This document shows, piece after piece, positions 18,001-25,330 of a stretch of 64,000 nucleotides of DNA; positions within the stretch are counted from its first letter, which is position 1, and each line of letters begins with the position of its first letter. Where the stretch lies: positions 558,001 to 622,000 of the forward strand of contig CANNGL010000001.1 in assembly GCA_947504205.1 (NCBI GenBank), written 5' to 3'. The translations under genes and the position numbers were made by a program. This stretch comes from an uncultured Litoreibacter sp. GTDB lineage: Bacteria > Pseudomonadota > Alphaproteobacteria > Rhodobacterales > Rhodobacteraceae. The notes under the pieces were generated by a model. It saw nothing but the letters and a program-made list of their open reading frames with translations. It made no database searches and was not told the origin of the DNA.

Positions 18001-18234
18001 ATGAAAGCACGTGTGCATGTAATGCTGAAAAACGGGGTGCTTGACCCGCAGGGTGAGGCTGTTCGCCACGCCCTCGGATCATTGGGGTTTGATGGGGTGG
18101 AAGGTGTCCGACAAGGCAAGGTGATTGACCTTGATCTGGCGGAAGGCACTTCCGAGGACGCCGTCAAAGAGATGTGTGAGAAGCTGCTGGCCAACACAGT
18201 CATCGAATCCTACCAGATCGAGATGCAGGTCTGA
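18001..18234 (+). CDS. purS: Phosphoribosylformylglycinamidine synthase subunit PurS
   Basis: [40 protein letters not shown]. Confidence 0.96.
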
Positions 18235-18902
18235 TGCGCGCCGGTGTCATCGTCTTTCCCGGATCAAACTGTGATCGTGACCTCGCCGAAGGATTCAAAG
18301 CTGCGGGCGCTGATGTCACTATGGTTTGGCACAAGGATACCGCGCTGCCGAGTGGGCTCGATATCGTGGGTATTCCGGGAGGTTTTTCGTTCGGAGACTA
18401 TCTGCGTTGCGGTGCGATTGCCGCGCAATCACCGATTTCCAAGGCGGTTGTTGATTTTGCCGAAAAAGGCGGGCACGTGCTTGGAATCTGTAATGGATTT
18501 CAGGTGTTATGCGAGACCGGGCTGCTTCCGGGCGTCTTGATGCGCAACGCAGGTTTGCGATTTGTCTGCCGACAGGAACGCCTCGAGGTCGCGACCGAAA
18601 ACAGCGCGTTCACCGGCAGATATAAGCTGGATGAGGAAATCACGATCCCGATAGCGCATCACGATGGGAATTTTTCCGCCGATGCCGATTTGGTGGCTCA
18701 ATTGGAGGCCGAAGATCGGGTGGCGTTTCGGTATCTGGATAACCCAAATGGGTCTGCGGGCGACATTGCGGGGATTTTATCAGAAAACCGTAGGGTTTTG
18801 GGACTTATGCCGCATCCCGAGCGGGCTGTCAGCGATGCCCAAGGCAATAGCGACGGAATGCGGGTTTTCACCTCTCTGACGGAAGCGCTTGTTGCGGCAT
18901 AA
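18234..18902 (+). CDS. purQ: Phosphoribosylformylglycinamidine synthase subunit PurQ
   Basis: [37 protein letters not shown]. Confidence 0.96.
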
Positions 18903-18956
18903 TTCCGCTTAAGCCTGCGCTTGAGAGTGCGCGGGGTTAGGCCTAGAGTCGGCGAC

Positions 18957-20750
18957 ATGAAGCTCGGGGCTCCCTCAGAGGCGAAATCCGCCAGCCAACC
19001 TATGACGCTCAAGGCGTTGTGGACAGTTCGGATTGTTGTCATTTTGCTGATCGCCTTGGCCGTCGCGACGATCTGGGTGTCCAACCTGTGGCTGACGCAG
19101 AGCTTTACCGAAACAACGCGAAATCGCGCAGAGCTGCGCAGCGCCTTATATTCGAACGCGATTAACGGCGAGTTGAAACGCCATCAGATTGTGCCTCTGC
19201 TGCTGTCTCGTGACCCGTTTATGATCACCGCTTTGAATTCGCAGGATTTCACCTCGACCTCGCAACGGTTGATTTCTTTCGCTGAAGAGATCGGGACGTC
19301 AGGTCTGCGATTGTTGGACAGTGAAGGGCGGGTGGTTGCGTCTTCGGATCGAAACGAGCTTGGCCAAAACCTGCGTTCGGAGAGATACTTTGTCGACGCG
19401 CTGCGGGCCAGTGATACGATCTTTTCAGCGGAGCAGTTGGAAAGCGGTGGCTTCAGTTTTGTCTACGCCCGGCGGATCGAGTTTGAAAAAGAAGGCTTGG
19501 GCGTCATGGTCGTGGATGTCGATCTTCAATCGCTCGAAGGCCGCTGGCGGTCGCCAACCGAGGCGGTACTAGTGACCAATAGTGAAGGTGAGATCATCAT
19601 CGCGACGGACCCGCGATGGCGTGGTTTGACCATGGAAGAAGCTTTGGTACGCACGGCACCTGCCTCAGCTATTCGGCGCGCTTTTGAGGCCACGGGCGGT
19701 TATCTTGAGCTGTCAGGTCATGATACCTACTTCCGCGGCGAGGCGGTGATGCGCACGGATAGCCGTATCGGGTTTCGCGGCTGGCGGCTGACGACATTCT
19801 CCAGCTACGCATCTGTGCGAGAGCGGGTTAACGGCGTGCTCGCCATCGAGATCATGATTTTCGCTATTCTGCTGGCATTAGCGTTCTATATGCTCTCGCG
19901 TCGCGCCCAGTCTCAAGTGGGGATATTCCGTCGTGAATCCGAGCAACTCAGAGCGCTGAATGCGCGTCTCAGCAGCGAGATTGCTGAACGGAAGAAGGTT
20001 CAAAAAAACCTCGAAGTTGCCGAGCAGTCTTTGGCACAGAGCCAGAAATTGGCTGCTTTGGGTGAGATGTCTGCCGCGGTCAGTCACGAGCTAAACCAAC
20101 CACTGGCCGCTATGCGAACTTATCTGGCGGGGGCCAAACTGCTTCTGCAACGCAAGCGCGTGGACGAGGCCCAAAGCTCGTTCCAGCGTATCGACGATCT
20201 GATCAGCCGCATGGGCGCGATCACCAAACAGCTCAAATCCTATGCCCGCAAAGGCGGCGAGGATTTGGAGCCTGTTGATTTGCGAAATGCTGTCTCCGGG
20301 TCGTTGTCGATGATGGAGCCGCAGTTGAAGCAATCCCAGATTCAGGTCACCACGACGCTTCCCGATGAACCGGTTCTGGTATTGGCGGACCGCGTACGTC
20401 TGGAACAGGTGATCATCAACCTGTTTCGCAACGCGCTGGATGCAACGAAGGTCGTCGCCGCGCCGCAGATCGATATTCTGCTGACACAAGGTGAGACGGC
20501 TACCTTGACATTAAGAGACAACGGAAATGGCATCGAAAATCTCGATGATCTTTTTGAGCCTTTCTACACGACGAAATTGCCCGGAGAGGGGGTCGGTCTT
20601 GGATTGGCGATCAGCTCTGGGATTGTAACAGATTTGGGCGGCAATCTAACCGCCCGGAACGGACAAGCGGGTGGGGCGGTCTTCGAGATGCAGCTTCCGC
20701 TTTATTCACAAGATGAACAATCAGCGGCGTCGAGCGAGGCCGCAGAATAA
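18957..20750 (+). CDS. DctB-like sensor histidine kinase
   Basis: Two TM segments flanking a dCache-like periplasmic region; AAVSHELNQPLAAMRTYLAGAKLLL; GEGVGLGLAISSGIV. Confidence 0.88.
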   Translation: MKLGAPSEAKSASQPMTLKALWTVRIVVILLIALAVATIWVSNLWLTQSFTETTRNRAELRSALYSNAINGELKRHQIVPLLLSRDPFMITALNSQDFTSTSQRLISFAEEIGTSGLRLLDSEGRVVASSDRNELGQNLRSERYFVDALRASDTIFSAEQLESGGFSFVYARRIEFEKEGLGVMVVDVDLQSLEGRWRSPTEAVLVTNSEGEIIIATDPRWRGLTMEEALVRTAPASAIRRAFEATGGYLELSGHDTYFRGEAVMRTDSRIGFRGWRLTTFSSYASVRERVNGVLAIEIMIFAILLALAFYMLSRRAQSQVGIFRRESEQLRALNARLSSEIAERKKVQKNLEVAEQSLAQSQKLAALGEMSAAVSHELNQPLAAMRTYLAGAKLLLQRKRVDEAQSSFQRIDDLISRMGAITKQLKSYARKGGEDLEPVDLRNAVSGSLSMMEPQLKQSQIQVTTTLPDEPVLVLADRVRLEQVIINLFRNALDATKVVAAPQIDILLTQGETATLTLRDNGNGIENLDDLFEPFYTTKLPGEGVGLGLAISSGIVTDLGGNLTARNGQAGGAVFEMQLPLYSQDEQSAASSEAAE

Positions 20751-20770: not shown

Positions 20771-22102
20771 ATGTCTAGTGCTCTCAAAATCGCTATCGTT
20801 GATGACGAACAGGATATGCGTCAATCCATAAGCCAGTGGCTGGCGTTGTCTGGCTATGACACCGAAACCTTTGGCAGCGCGGAAGACGCACTGAAAGGGA
20901 TCGGATCGAACTACCCCGGCATCGTTGTGTCGGACATTCGCATGCCTGGCATGGACGGGATGCAGTTTCTCAAGCGACTGATGAGCCAGGATTCGTCCCT
21001 GCCGGTGATCATGATCACGGGACATGGTGACGTGCCGATGGCGGTTGAAGCGATGCGGGTTGGTGCTTTTGACTTTTTGGAGAAGCCGTTCAACCCGGAC
21101 AGGATGACCGAGCTTGCGAAGAAAGCCACCTCAAGTCGCCGTTTGACGCTTGATAACCGGGCCTTGCGGCAGGAGTTGTCGGATGGCTCCGCGCTAATGA
21201 AGAAGCTGATCGGTTCAAGTCCGGCGATGGAACGGCTGCGCGAGGATATTTTGGATCTGGGTCAGGCCGATGGCCATGTTCTGATCGATGGCGAAACGGG
21301 TACAGGTAAAACGCTAACGGCTCATGCGCTGCATGCGGTGGGTCCCCGTGCGGGCAAGAAATTCGTTGTTCTGAGCTGCGCTGCCTTTGATGAGATGGCG
21401 CTGTCCAAGCGTCTCTTTGATCCGGTTGAGGAGGGCGAAGCGCTGCCTCTGGTTGAAGAAGCGCGCGGCGGCACGCTTGTGTTGGAGGACATCGAGGCGC
21501 TGCCGGGTACGCTTCAAGCGCGTCTATTGCAGTTTATTAATGATCAGGGCACGCCGGCCGAGACCCGTATCATTGCAATCTGCAACACGCAGGAGCAGGA
21601 CAAAACCTGTGAGGATATGATCCGTTCGGATCTGTATTACCGTTTGGCCGCCATGAAAATTACGCTGCCTCCGTTACGCCAGCGTGGAGAAGATATCCTG
21701 ACACTATTCAACCGTTTTGGTGAGCAATATGGCGAGGAATATGGCTCGGACGCGCCTGAGGTGTCCGCGCAGGAGGCCGCGCAATTGTTGCAGGCACCGT
21801 GGCCGGGCAATGTTCGTCAGTTGATCAACGTCGCTGAGCGTGCGGTGCTGCAAAATCGGCGCGGGTCGGGCTCCATCGCTTCGCTGTTGATGGCTGATAA
21901 CGCTGAAATGGGTCCGGTCATCACGACTGAGGGCAAACCATTGAAGGAATATGTGGAAGCGTTCGAGCGAATGCTGATCGACAACACCATGCGCCGCCAC
22001 AAGGGCTCGATAGCATCGGTCATGGAAGAGCTTTGCCTGCCGCGGCGAACTCTGAATGAAAAAATGGCCAAGTATGGTCTGCAGCGTTCTGACTATCTTT
22101 GA
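20771..22102 (+). CDS. DctD-like response regulator with AAA+ domain (GAFTGA loop apparently missing)
   Basis: Receiver domain (IVDDEQDMRQSI, VSDIRMPGMDG), Walker A GETGTGKT, 'RSDLYYRLA', 'WPGNVRQLINVAERAVL', C-terminal Fis-like HTH. Confidence 0.88.
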   Translation: MSSALKIAIVDDEQDMRQSISQWLALSGYDTETFGSAEDALKGIGSNYPGIVVSDIRMPGMDGMQFLKRLMSQDSSLPVIMITGHGDVPMAVEAMRVGAFDFLEKPFNPDRMTELAKKATSSRRLTLDNRALRQELSDGSALMKKLIGSSPAMERLREDILDLGQADGHVLIDGETGTGKTLTAHALHAVGPRAGKKFVVLSCAAFDEMALSKRLFDPVEEGEALPLVEEARGGTLVLEDIEALPGTLQARLLQFINDQGTPAETRIIAICNTQEQDKTCEDMIRSDLYYRLAAMKITLPPLRQRGEDILTLFNRFGEQYGEEYGSDAPEVSAQEAAQLLQAPWPGNVRQLINVAERAVLQNRRGSGSIASLLMADNAEMGPVITTEGKPLKEYVEAFERMLIDNTMRRHKGSIASVMEELCLPRRTLNEKMAKYGLQRSDYL

Positions 22103-22186: not shown

Positions 22187-22657
22187 CACTGAAGGGTAGG
22201 TCTGACGCATAAAATCGGCTCTCACGTGGTCTAAATTCATCGCTAAATCAACATATGCTGCGCTGCGGCGCGCTTTGCGGATTGTAATTGTAATGTAAAA
22301 CACCCTATTACGGAGGTACGGGCGGCGCGCCGACGCTGGCGCAGCAGTCCGGTTTTAGAGTTTCACTGCAGACTTTGTCTCGATTACCAAGACAGGCCTG
22401 ACAGGATTAAGGGTCAGATGACCCGCAGCTGACGCGGATCAAAAGCGCGCAGCGACCAGAGTTGGCACAAGGCCGAACGGCCGTGTCGGAGAAAACGCGA
22501 TGAGACGCGAGCAGGACAGTCGAGTGGAGTTGCAGGGGCTATTGGCCGCTGCCCACGGACATGATCCAAGCGTCCGGACAATCGCCCAAACAAGTCACCC
22601 CCTTCATCCCCGCGTGCCACGTTGGCCCCGCGGATCGAGCGGGTGCGAACGGATATC

Positions 22658-25330
22658 ATGGCAAAAAAGATGCTTATCGATGCCACCCACGCGGAGGAGA
22701 CCCGCGTTGTTGTGGCAGACGGAAACAAGGTCGAGGAGTTCGACTTTGAATCCGAAAACAAACGCCAGCTCGCTGGCAATATCTACCTCGCAAAAGTAAC
22801 ACGGGTTGAGCCGTCGCTTCAGGCGGCATTCGTTGACTATGGTGGAAACCGTCACGGGTTTCTTGCCTATTCCGAAATTCATCCGGACTACTACCAAATC
22901 CCGGTAGCCGATCGCGAAGCACTGATCGCTGAGGAACTGGCCTATGCCGAAGCAATGGCCGCCGAGGAAGAAGAACCTCCCAAGAGGACGCGTCGCTCGC
23001 GGTCCCGCTCGCGCGGCAAGGCTGCCAAGACCCATAGCGAAGATGCAACAACCTCTGCCGAGACCGAAGAAAGTGGTCTGGCTGTCATCGACCTTGATGA
23101 GGATGAGGTTGACGTATCCGATAAGGTAGCGGCGTCTCCAATGGAAACCGTGGCTGAAACCCCGGTTGAGACCCCGCTGGTCAGTGAAGATGACGAGGAT
23201 GCGTCGGACGACACCGAGACCGAGGGCGACGGTGCTGACGCAGATCAATCCAGTGACGATGATGGCGATGACGCGGATACCGATGACGACATCGAAAGCG
23301 TTGCGCAGGAAAACGTGGACGACGAAATTCGCCAGCCGCGCAAGCCACGTCCAAAGCGCTACAAAATCCAAGAAGTTATCAAGGTACGTCAGATCCTCTT
23401 GGTGCAGGTTGTCAAAGAGGAGCGTGGCAACAAGGGTGCAGCCCTGACGACCTATCTCTCATTGGCGGGTCGCTATTGTGTGCTTATGCCCAACACCGCG
23501 CGCGGTGGTGGCATCTCGCGCAAGATCACCAATGCAGCGGACCGCAAGAAGCTCAAGGAGATCGCGGCAGAGATTGATGTGCCGAAAGGTGCCGGTTTGA
23601 TCGTTCGCACGGCCGGTGCGCGTCGAACCAAGACAGAGATCAAGCGCGACTACGAATATCTCCAGCGCCAATGGGAGCAAATCCGGGCGCTGACGTTGAA
23701 GTCGATTGCGCCTGCACCGATCTATGAAGAGGGCGATTTGATCAAGCGATCGATCCGCGACCTGTATAATCGCGAGATTGACGAAGTGATGATCGAAGGC
23801 GAAGCGGGATACCGCGTGGCCAAGGACTTCATGAAAATGATCATGCCGTCCCATGCAAAGAACGTGAAGCATTACACCGACGCGATGCCCTTGTTTGCGC
23901 GCTATCAGGTCGAGAGCTACCTGTCAGGAATGTTCAATCCGACGGTTCAACTGCCATCAGGCGGCTATATCGTGATTGGCATCACTGAGGCGCTGGTTGC
24001 GGTGGACGTCAACTCTGGTCGGGCGACAAAAGAGGGTTCGATCGAGCAAACCGCCTTGAAGACCAATCTTGAGGCTGCCGATGAAGTCGCTCGCCAGATG
24101 CGCTTGCGCGACTTGGCGGGCCTGATCGTCATCGATTTCATCGATATGGAAGAGCGGCGCAACAACAACGCGGTTGAAAAGCGTCTGAAGGACAGACTGA
24201 AAACGGATCGCGCACGCATTCAGGTGGGTCGCATTTCTGGCTTTGGCTTGTTGGAGATGTCCCGTCAGCGTCTGCGGCCGGGTATGTTGGAAGCGACAAC
24301 TCAGCCATGCCCGTCATGCCATGGTACAGGCCTCATACGATCGGATGACAGCCTTGCCTTGACCATTCTGAGGCAACTCGAAGAAGAAGGCACGCGTCGC
24401 CGTTCGAAAGAGGTTCTTCTGAAAGCGCCGGTGAACGTGATCAATTATCTGGTCAATTCGAAGCGCGAACATATTGCGGGTATCGAAGCGCGGTATGGAT
24501 TGTCGATCCGCATGGAAGCTGATCCGCACAAGGTAAGCCCAGATTTCGAGATCGAGAAATTCAAGACGGCGACCCGCGCGATTCAGGCACCTTCTTCGGC
24601 GGTCGTGTCCATGGACTCGGTTGATCTGTCAGACATTGATGCGGAAGATGCAGATAATGTTGTGGCTGAGGTCGAAGAAGAGACCGAAGAGCAGCCAAAG
24701 AAAAAGCGCCGGCGTCGGCGCCGTGGTGGTCGGGGACGCTCTCGTGGCCGCAACGGTGACGAGGAAGCGCGCGAGAACAGCGAAGACGATGCTGAAGCGC
24801 AATCATCTAATGCGCAAGAAGCTGGTGCGGATGAGGCGGCCCCTGAACAGGAAGAGAAGCCGAAATCCCGGAGCAGATCGCGTCGGACAAAGAAGACTGA
24901 TGATGCGAAACCCGAGTCCGAGGCGGCAGAAGCGAAGGTGACGGATGCCGACCCCGTGGAGGCGAAAGAAGCTGACGCTCCTGACGAAAAGCCAAAACGA
25001 AAACGCAAGGCGCCGTCACGTAAGAAAGCGGCAGAGACAGCTCAGTCAGAGGCGGGCGACACCGAGGCCGCTGCTGATGCAAAACCTGCAGATGCCGAAG
25101 CTGCACCCGACGTCGCCGAGAAGCCAAAACGTACGCGCAAGCCGCGTAAGCCAAAGGCAGAAACCGCAGCTGAGACTGTCGATGCGAAACCTGAAACGGT
25201 CGTCGCCAAGAAGCCGGAAAAAGCACAAGAACCTGTGGCGGCCGAACCCGTTGCGGCAGAGGCAGCACCTGCCGAAGCGAAATCGGACAAGCCGAAACGT
25301 CGTGGCTGGTGGTCGCTGGGTGGTAAGTAA
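22658..25330 (+). CDS. rne: Ribonuclease E/G family endoribonuclease (RNase E)
   Basis: MAKKMLIDATHAEETRVVVADGNKVEEFDFE; S1-like region split by an acidic insert; TQPCPSCHGTGL Zn-link; Lys/Arg/Ala-rich C-terminal scaffold ending GWWSLGGK. Confidence 0.95.
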   Translation: MAKKMLIDATHAEETRVVVADGNKVEEFDFESENKRQLAGNIYLAKVTRVEPSLQAAFVDYGGNRHGFLAYSEIHPDYYQIPVADREALIAEELAYAEAMAAEEEEPPKRTRRSRSRSRGKAAKTHSEDATTSAETEESGLAVIDLDEDEVDVSDKVAASPMETVAETPVETPLVSEDDEDASDDTETEGDGADADQSSDDDGDDADTDDDIESVAQENVDDEIRQPRKPRPKRYKIQEVIKVRQILLVQVVKEERGNKGAALTTYLSLAGRYCVLMPNTARGGGISRKITNAADRKKLKEIAAEIDVPKGAGLIVRTAGARRTKTEIKRDYEYLQRQWEQIRALTLKSIAPAPIYEEGDLIKRSIRDLYNREIDEVMIEGEAGYRVAKDFMKMIMPSHAKNVKHYTDAMPLFARYQVESYLSGMFNPTVQLPSGGYIVIGITEALVAVDVNSGRATKEGSIEQTALKTNLEAADEVARQMRLRDLAGLIVIDFIDMEERRNNNAVEKRLKDRLKTDRARIQVGRISGFGLLEMSRQRLRPGMLEATTQPCPSCHGTGLIRSDDSLALTILRQLEEEGTRRRSKEVLLKAPVNVINYLVNSKREHIAGIEARYGLSIRMEADPHKVSPDFEIEKFKTATRAIQAPSSAVVSMDSVDLSDIDAEDADNVVAEVEEETEEQPKKKRRRRRRGGRGRSRGRNGDEEARENSEDDAEAQSSNAQEAGADEAAPEQEEKPKSRSRSRRTKKTDDAKPESEAAEAKVTDADPVEAKEADAPDEKPKRKRKAPSRKKAAETAQSEAGDTEAAADAKPADAEAAPDVAEKPKRTRKPRKPKAETAAETVDAKPETVVAKKPEKAQEPVAAEPVAAEAAPAEAKSDKPKRRGWWSLGGK

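Follow-up and report, generated by a model that had tools for sequence, protein, structure and literature searches.

A DctD-like regulator of Rhodobacteraceae without the GAFTGA loop is probably a sigma70-dependent response regulator

Results

A DctB/DctD-derived pair linked to purQ

The response regulator P0001 is most probably switched by phosphorylation, depends on sigma70, and hydrolyses ATP weakly or not at all; it belongs to a DctB/DctD-derived pair uncoupled from sigma54. We put the probability of this reading at about 0.72, a joint figure that also covers the loss of sigma54 contact before the sampled pair-carrying Rhodobacteraceae lineages diverged. P0001 is encoded in the analyzed stretch of 64,000 nucleotides (the window; C1:558001-622000 of the host genome), in which the following features were located.

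18234..18902, + strand: purQ, the conserved upstream neighbor of the kinase-regulator pair
18920..18949, + strand: likely sigma70-type operon promoter, with -35 CTTGAG at 18920-18925, an 18-nt spacer, and -10 TAGAGT at 18944-18949
18957..20750, + strand: sensor histidine kinase, 597 aa, DctB-derived, with dCache sensor, HisKA, and HATPase_c domains (Pfam)
20771..22102, + strand: response regulator P0001, 443 aa, with receiver, AAA+ domain without GAFTGA, AAA lid, and Fis HTH
20783..21130, + strand: receiver domain, residues 5-120
21290..21313, + strand: Walker A GETGTGKT, residues 174-181
21377..21466, + strand: L1 region CAAFDEMALSKRLFDPVEEGEALPLVEEAR, residues 203-232, six residues short, GAFTGA absent
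21467..21490, + strand: altered Walker B GGTLVLED, residues 233-240, acids DE changed to ED
21623..21646, + strand: arginine-finger segment RSDLYYRL (R285, R291)
21953..22084, + strand: Fis-type HTH, residues 395-438, with PRRTLNEKM (424-432) invariant
22622..25330, + strand: ribonuclease E/G-type gene (rne), the usual downstream neighbor, start codon uncertain

P0001 joins a receiver, an AAA+ domain, and a Fis-type HTH in one chain, which is the architecture of the NtrC family (group I bacterial enhancer-binding proteins). Its Pfam domains, REC (7-115), Sigma54_activat (146-297), AAA lid (303-364), and Fis HTH (395-435), all exceeded the curated cut-offs (PF00072, PF00158 with 93 bits, PF25601, and PF02954). 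The first-pass annotation had given the reading frame, its coordinates, Walker A, and RSDLYYRL exactly, and its label "DctD-like" is right by sequence. The gap between the kinase and regulator genes is 20 bases. The gene order purC-purQ-kinase-regulator, mostly with rne downstream, was kept in 80 relatives at 80-93% identity, and purQ was found upstream of the pair in every sufficiently long locus among them. As that annotation had stated, no dctPQM genes flank the pair; none of the 13 DctP genes of the genome lies inside the window. Orthologues 83% identical to P0001 were also observed in two sequences titled Nocardioides marinus (L029, JAHVJD010000001.1) and Candidatus Poseidoniales archaeon (L072), the former with the complete purC-purQ-kinase-regulator-rne order. 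Both look like mislabelled or contaminated Rhodobacteraceae assemblies.

P0001 and its orthologues lack the GAFTGA loop

The stretch between LF and GGTL comprises 16 residues in P0001 versus 22 in canonical DctD, and thus the reported shortening of L1 by about six residues was confirmed. No GAFTGA-like string was found anywhere in the protein by regular expression or alignment, so that P0001 does not carry the GAFTGA in L1 that characterizes sigma54 activators. The loss is shared by the relatives, as the motif was absent from all 142 fetched orthologues (47-93% identical to P0001), which were drawn from two collections and may include some species twice. Orthologues from RpoN-positive genomes likewise had no GAFTGA loop. 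A shifted but intact GAFTGA is therefore ruled out, as is a frameshift or local deletion, since the six-residue-short loop is fixed in relatives. Chance or sequencing error is excluded because the motif is missing in 142 of 142 orthologues and selection on the gene is strongly purifying. In the AlphaFold model of P0001 (mean pLDDT 83; pTM 0.55, so that the domain arrangement is uncertain), a short coil at residues 216-226 replaces the L1 hairpin, preceded by a helix at 208-215 and followed by a short helix at 227-230. The host has four NtrC-family regulators (P0001, NtrX, NtrC, and the second DctD-type regulator, Dct2), none of which carries GAFTGA.

RpoN is absent from the host and from most genomes of the family

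The host genome spans 3.79 Mb in 10 contigs, is 99.96% complete, and has Litoreibacter as its nearest named relatives. It gave no match to either the DNA-binding (PF04552) or the core-binding (PF04963) domain of RpoN, while control genomes were positive. Thus, the partner sigma factor expected for a sigma54 activator is missing, so that sigma70-family holoenzymes are the only ones that this host can form. Because the host has no RpoN, we infer that the targets of P0001 would depend on sigma70. The earlier proposal that this protein may be unable to open sigma54 promoters gains strong support from the absence of RpoN under two domain models, together with the missing loop in every orthologue examined.

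Among 200 family genomes, an orthologue of P0001 (E below 1e-100) was found in 183 and RpoN in about 62 (63 exceeded the cut-off, one of them with a partial 23-bit match); therefore, about 130 genomes have the regulator without RpoN. Similarly, 38 of the 42 named genomes carrying the orthologue showed no convincing RpoN, with four clear hits and one partial match of about 22 bits in this set. No RpoN was detected in two type strains that have the pair, Litoreibacter arenae DSM 19593 and Sulfitobacter dubius DSM 16472.

The AAA+ motor is altered and the conservation pattern is inverted

The Walker-B-like strand noted in the first-pass annotation reads ED, not DE. Among 42 aligned orthologues of the purQ-linked clade, the first Walker B acid was E in 40 and the second was D or N in 40, as opposed to DE in all 22 canonical DctD and all six Dct2 proteins. 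By this alignment, the ED of P0001 is a clade-wide substitution. Accordingly, P0001 has the Walker A lysine expected of sigma54 activators but not their Walker B DE. This lysine (K180) was kept in 40 of the 42 orthologues and replaced by R in the other two; residue 181 was T or S in all 42 versus E in all 22 canonical proteins (GExGTGKE). R285 and R291 were each present in 40 of the 42 as well. To trap PspF and NtrC1 with ATP bound, the Walker B Glu is routinely mutated, and structures of these proteins (4qnr and 3m0e) were among the fold matches. Because such mutants trap the ATP-bound state, weak ATP hydrolysis by P0001 may fairly be inferred from the residue change. What counts against the weak-hydrolysis model is that 40 of 42 proteins retain the Walker A lysine and the arginine fingers, so that selection still maintains ATP binding, and possibly slow hydrolysis, in most lineages.

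In two deep members (G014 and G188), the Walker A lysine is changed to arginine, the Walker B acids are lost, and R291 is lost, and the key residues of the receiver and HTH persist. Successive decay of the AAA+ domain was observed among the deep orthologues (L147-L149; G144, G188, and G014). G144 keeps the Walker B DE and has a larger L1 deletion; in G188 and G014, Walker A reads GERGAGRS, the Walker B acids are not in canonical form, and the arginine finger is lost.

Mean pairwise identities in the purQ-linked clade were 64% for the receiver, 52% for the AAA+ core, 35% for L1, and 78% for the HTH, compared with 50, 55, 58, and 42%, respectively, in canonical DctD. The conservation order is therefore inverted: HTH, receiver, and AAA+ in the purQ-linked clade versus AAA+, receiver, and HTH in canonical proteins. 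D11, D12, D55, T83, K105, and PRRTLNEKM were invariant in all 42 orthologues. Compared with other Litoreibacter, dN was about 0.06-0.08 with dS near or at saturation, and dN/dS was 0.02-0.03 where computable; in whole-gene comparisons overall, dN/dS was 0.02-0.06. The gene of P0001 is under strong purifying selection.

GAFTGA was lost more than once among DctD-type proteins

A tree was computed with the L1 columns left out. The purQ-linked proteins grouped together with a local support of 0.93, or 0.998 when the deepest member was left out, and the Dct2 proteins formed a separate clade (0.997), the sister of which, L197, keeps GAFTGA (0.974). Since the Dct2 clade has a GAFTGA-bearing sister and stands apart from the purQ-linked clade, the tree indicates at least two losses of GAFTGA among DctD-type proteins, NtrC and NtrX not counted. 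No GAFTGA-bearing member was found among the sampled purQ-linked proteins, so that this tree does not fix whether the loop or RpoN went first. Some deep members of the clade occur in RpoN-positive genomes; therefore, the loop-less form does not require loss of RpoN.

The second pair is linked to a transporter and a palindrome

Dct2, the second GAFTGA-less DctBD pair of the host (C1:355.9-359.1 kb), lies in a kinase-regulator-dctP-dctQ-dctM cluster. Similar to P0001, it is of the DctB/DctD type, lacks GAFTGA, and has RRTLNEK in the recognition helix. In contrast to P0001, it belongs to a separate clade, keeps an intact Walker B, has a larger L1 deletion, and is linked to dctPQM and the palindrome TGCGGANNTCCGCA. 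The perfect palindrome TGCGGAAATCCGCA was located outside the window at C1:355905-355918 (L188 5906-5919), between the Dct2 regulator and dctP, and occurs exactly once in the 3.79 Mb host genome. We take TGCGGAAATCCGCA to resemble rhizobial DctD sites. Dct2 loci elsewhere carry it too, and it also lies next to L197, the sister that has GAFTGA; therefore, DNA recognition appears to have outlived sigma54 contact in the Dct2 clade.

An operator of P0001 was not found in palindrome searches of the genome and window. The Dct2 operator TGCGGANNTCCGCA is not supported as a P0001 site, as its only exact genome copy is at the dctP beside Dct2. Its 13 one-mismatch sites all lie inside open reading frames, and the count is close to that of the reversed-pattern control (14 versus 10). 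Within the window, sites with two mismatches occurred at the chance level. An imperfect DctD-like palindrome, TGTGTGGAAAGTCGCACA, was observed at C2:654 kb (C2:654409-655257, L158) between another dctP and a divergent upstream sensor kinase; it is not attributable to P0001.

The partner kinase has a changed sensor and a conserved promoter

The sensor region of the partner kinase matched only DctB-type sensors in the PDB (3by9, 2zbb, and 3e4o; E values 3.6e-11 to 2e-8), and thus the kinase has a DctB-type periplasmic sensor. By motif alignment, however, FRPYF is absent from this kinase, which reads SERYF. The arginine was not at this position in the 79 kinase orthologues (E, A, and S being the commonest residues), and in place of FRPYF the purQ-linked kinases have R-x-x-x-[YF]F, preceded by a gap of four residues. 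By comparison, the arginine is kept in L181-L185 and L188, and the whole FRPYF is kept in the dctPQM-linked L188 and in the canonical L182 and L185. The FRPYF arginine contacts the ligand in C4-dicarboxylate sensors. Judging from these residues, the ligand of the partner kinase is probably not bound as in DctB. The pair is also not linked to dctA or dctPQM, its neighbors being purQ and rne; hence, it lacks two (FRPYF and transporter linkage) of the three marks of a DctB/DctD transport system. Because the kinase has no FRPYF and the other DctBD pair sits with dctPQM, a C4-dicarboxylate transport role for P0001, as "DctD-like" might suggest, is not supported by the sequences.

The ATG of the kinase gene at 18957 begins 7 nt past the -10 TAGAGT of the likely promoter. 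The pattern CTTGN-N15-20-TAnnYY was present at 42 of 79 purQ-kinase junctions versus 1.0 expected in shuffles, and the ATG lay no more than 14 nt from the pattern in 41 of these 42. Since the pattern is kept at these junctions, the kinase-regulator operon is probably transcribed by the housekeeping polymerase as a leaderless mRNA. The promoter directly follows the purQ stop codon, which abuts the -35 element in many relatives (TGACTTGAG). No conserved palindrome was found at the purQ-kinase junction besides the promoter.

In five deep-branching genomes (L172, L173, L176, L180, and G144:C200:7065-7997), msrP, called by the NCBIfam MsrP equivalog above its cut-off, is divergent from the kinase gene. 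The kinase-linked MsrP proteins formed one clade (support 1.0), apart from the MsrP proteins encoded elsewhere in other genomes, including that of the host. This arrangement suggests an ancestral msrP-kinase-regulator module, and a role in periplasmic methionine-sulfoxide repair can be taken as a lead only. Between msrP and the kinase gene lies TCAA-N6-TTGA, an inverted repeat that two back-to-back -35 elements explain equally well; it was not retained as an operator candidate.

Discussion

NtrC-type regulators that use sigma70 have been described, namely Rhodobacter capsulatus NtrC and HupR, Caulobacter NtrC, and Vibrio cholerae VpsR (PMC10274813, PMC3162934). R. capsulatus NtrC, cited correctly in the first-pass annotation as a precedent without GAFTGA (PMC10274813), and HupR resemble P0001 in having receiver, AAA+, and HTH domains, in the loss of GAFTGA, in their occurrence in Rhodobacterales, and in sigma54-free regulation (PMC10274813, PMC3162934). 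P0001 shares with this kind of regulator the NtrC architecture and the loss of GAFTGA. However, they belong to other orthologous groups, and the deletion in R. capsulatus NtrC is larger. Likewise, L1 of the host's own NtrC (L005) is shortened by about 20 residues and its Walker B DE (FDEV) is intact, whereas P0001 has lost six residues and has swapped the acids. The closest precedent by fold is instead Brucella abortus NtrX (5m7n, 5m7o, and 5m7p), a full-length REC-AAA+-HTH protein without GAFTGA, which was the best full-protein match in both sequence and fold and was followed among the fold matches by NtrC1. Nevertheless, NtrX is a clade apart, represented in the host by an orthologue (L001), keeps DE intact, and is only 31-32% identical to P0001. 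VpsR (fold match 7v2b) also lacks GAFTGA and works at sigma70 promoters, reportedly without needing ATP (PMC10274813), but it binds c-di-GMP, has no DctB/DctD-type operon, and is only 25-27% identical.

In receiver, HTH, and sensor, the purQ-linked pair is closest in kind to rhizobial and alphaproteobacterial DctB/DctD; the top matches included the DctD receiver (1qkk, 1l5y) for P0001 and the DctB sensor (2zbb, 3e4o) for the kinase. Canonical DctD differs from P0001 in having GAFTGA (the exact motif string type in 20 of 22 sampled) and the Walker B DE, and canonical DctB has FRPYF. No experimental study of the P0001 orthologous group was found in the literature searched, which is weak evidence, as most subscription journals were outside reach.

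We propose that the kinase would sense a periplasmic ligand and phosphorylate D55 of P0001, and that this phosphorylation would alter the oligomeric state of the regulator. The Fis-type HTH, whose recognition helix is invariant, could then bind operators, and the bound P0001 would recruit, position, or block ordinary sigma70 RNA polymerase. The AAA+ domain would serve as a scaffold for oligomerization and nucleotide binding, with little or no hydrolysis-driven remodelling.

The main point of doubt is ATP hydrolysis. If ED supports hydrolysis, P0001 could be an ATP-hydrolysing sigma70 regulator whose AAA+ ring works at sigma70 promoters, as for Caulobacter NtrC, which also lacks GAFTGA and requires its conserved ATP-binding and hydrolysis residues (PMC10274813). 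The retention of the Walker A lysine, R285, and R291 in 40 of 42 orthologues would fit this, as would the purifying selection still acting on the AAA+ domain. We nevertheless consider it rather unlikely: 40 of 42 orthologues have D or N in place of the catalytic Walker B Glu, although the GAFTGA-less neighbor clade Dct2 keeps DE in six of six, domain conservation in the purQ-linked clade is lowest in the AAA+ core, and two lineages lost the remaining ATPase residues yet kept the protein. A comparably low likelihood attaches to P0001 being mainly a repressor, in which the phosphorylated protein on DNA would exclude RNA polymerase as a roadblock without activating contact. Strong conservation is restricted to the receiver and HTH, and Caulobacter NtrC represses some sigma70 promoters (PMC10274813); however, simple blocking needs neither AAA+ domain nor lid, and both are retained in full length.

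P0001 is probably not a C4-dicarboxylate transport regulator, and such a DctB/DctD function continued through sigma70 appears improbable, despite the DctB-like sensor and the DctD-like receiver and HTH. No TRAP genes lie nearby, the kinase lacks the FRPYF kept by L188, L182, and L185, and it is the other pair that is linked to dctPQM and to a single-copy DctD-type palindrome between regulator and dctP. Moreover, the neighbor in the five deep genomes is msrP, not a transporter gene. In Ruegeria pomeroyi fitness data, the dicarboxylate regulators SPO2630 and SPOA0237 had the same effect sign as the adjacent TRAP genes (PMC10041152). The losses in L1 and the Walker B acids, with the far-decayed AAA+ motifs of G014 and G188, might also be read as a pseudogene disappearing after RpoN loss. 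This is practically refuted by the selection and conservation data, as the gene is intact and syntenic in 183 of 200 family genomes, with dN/dS of 0.02-0.06 and an invariant phosphorylation site and recognition helix.

Compared with these alternatives, the phosphorylation-switched, sigma70-dependent regulator with weak or no hydrolysis is preferred. A more far-reaching version, which we offer only tentatively, is that a near-universal DctBD-derived lineage of Rhodobacteraceae has been rebuilt from an ATP-driven sigma54 activator into a non-hydrolysing, phosphorylation-gated DNA-binding switch of housekeeping promoters. It would answer to a new signal from the periplasm, which might be connected with methionine-sulfoxide repair there, and the steps by which the AAA+ motor decayed would be preserved in living lineages.

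By default, annotation treats NtrC-family proteins as sigma54 activators. Here, the name given to a conserved regulator present in about nine of ten sampled Rhodobacteraceae genomes refers to a transport system and to a sigma factor missing from the host. The family is a natural experiment in which an AAA+ transcription activator would have survived the loss of its sigma factor. The phospho-switch, DNA recognition, and, in most lineages, nucleotide binding would have been kept; sigma contact and the catalytic Walker B acids would have been lost, with the whole ATPase site gone in two lineages. As one genome holds two sister-type systems, one with an intact and the other with an altered Walker B, what ATP hydrolysis contributes at sigma70 promoters would be directly testable in culturable RpoN-less strains.
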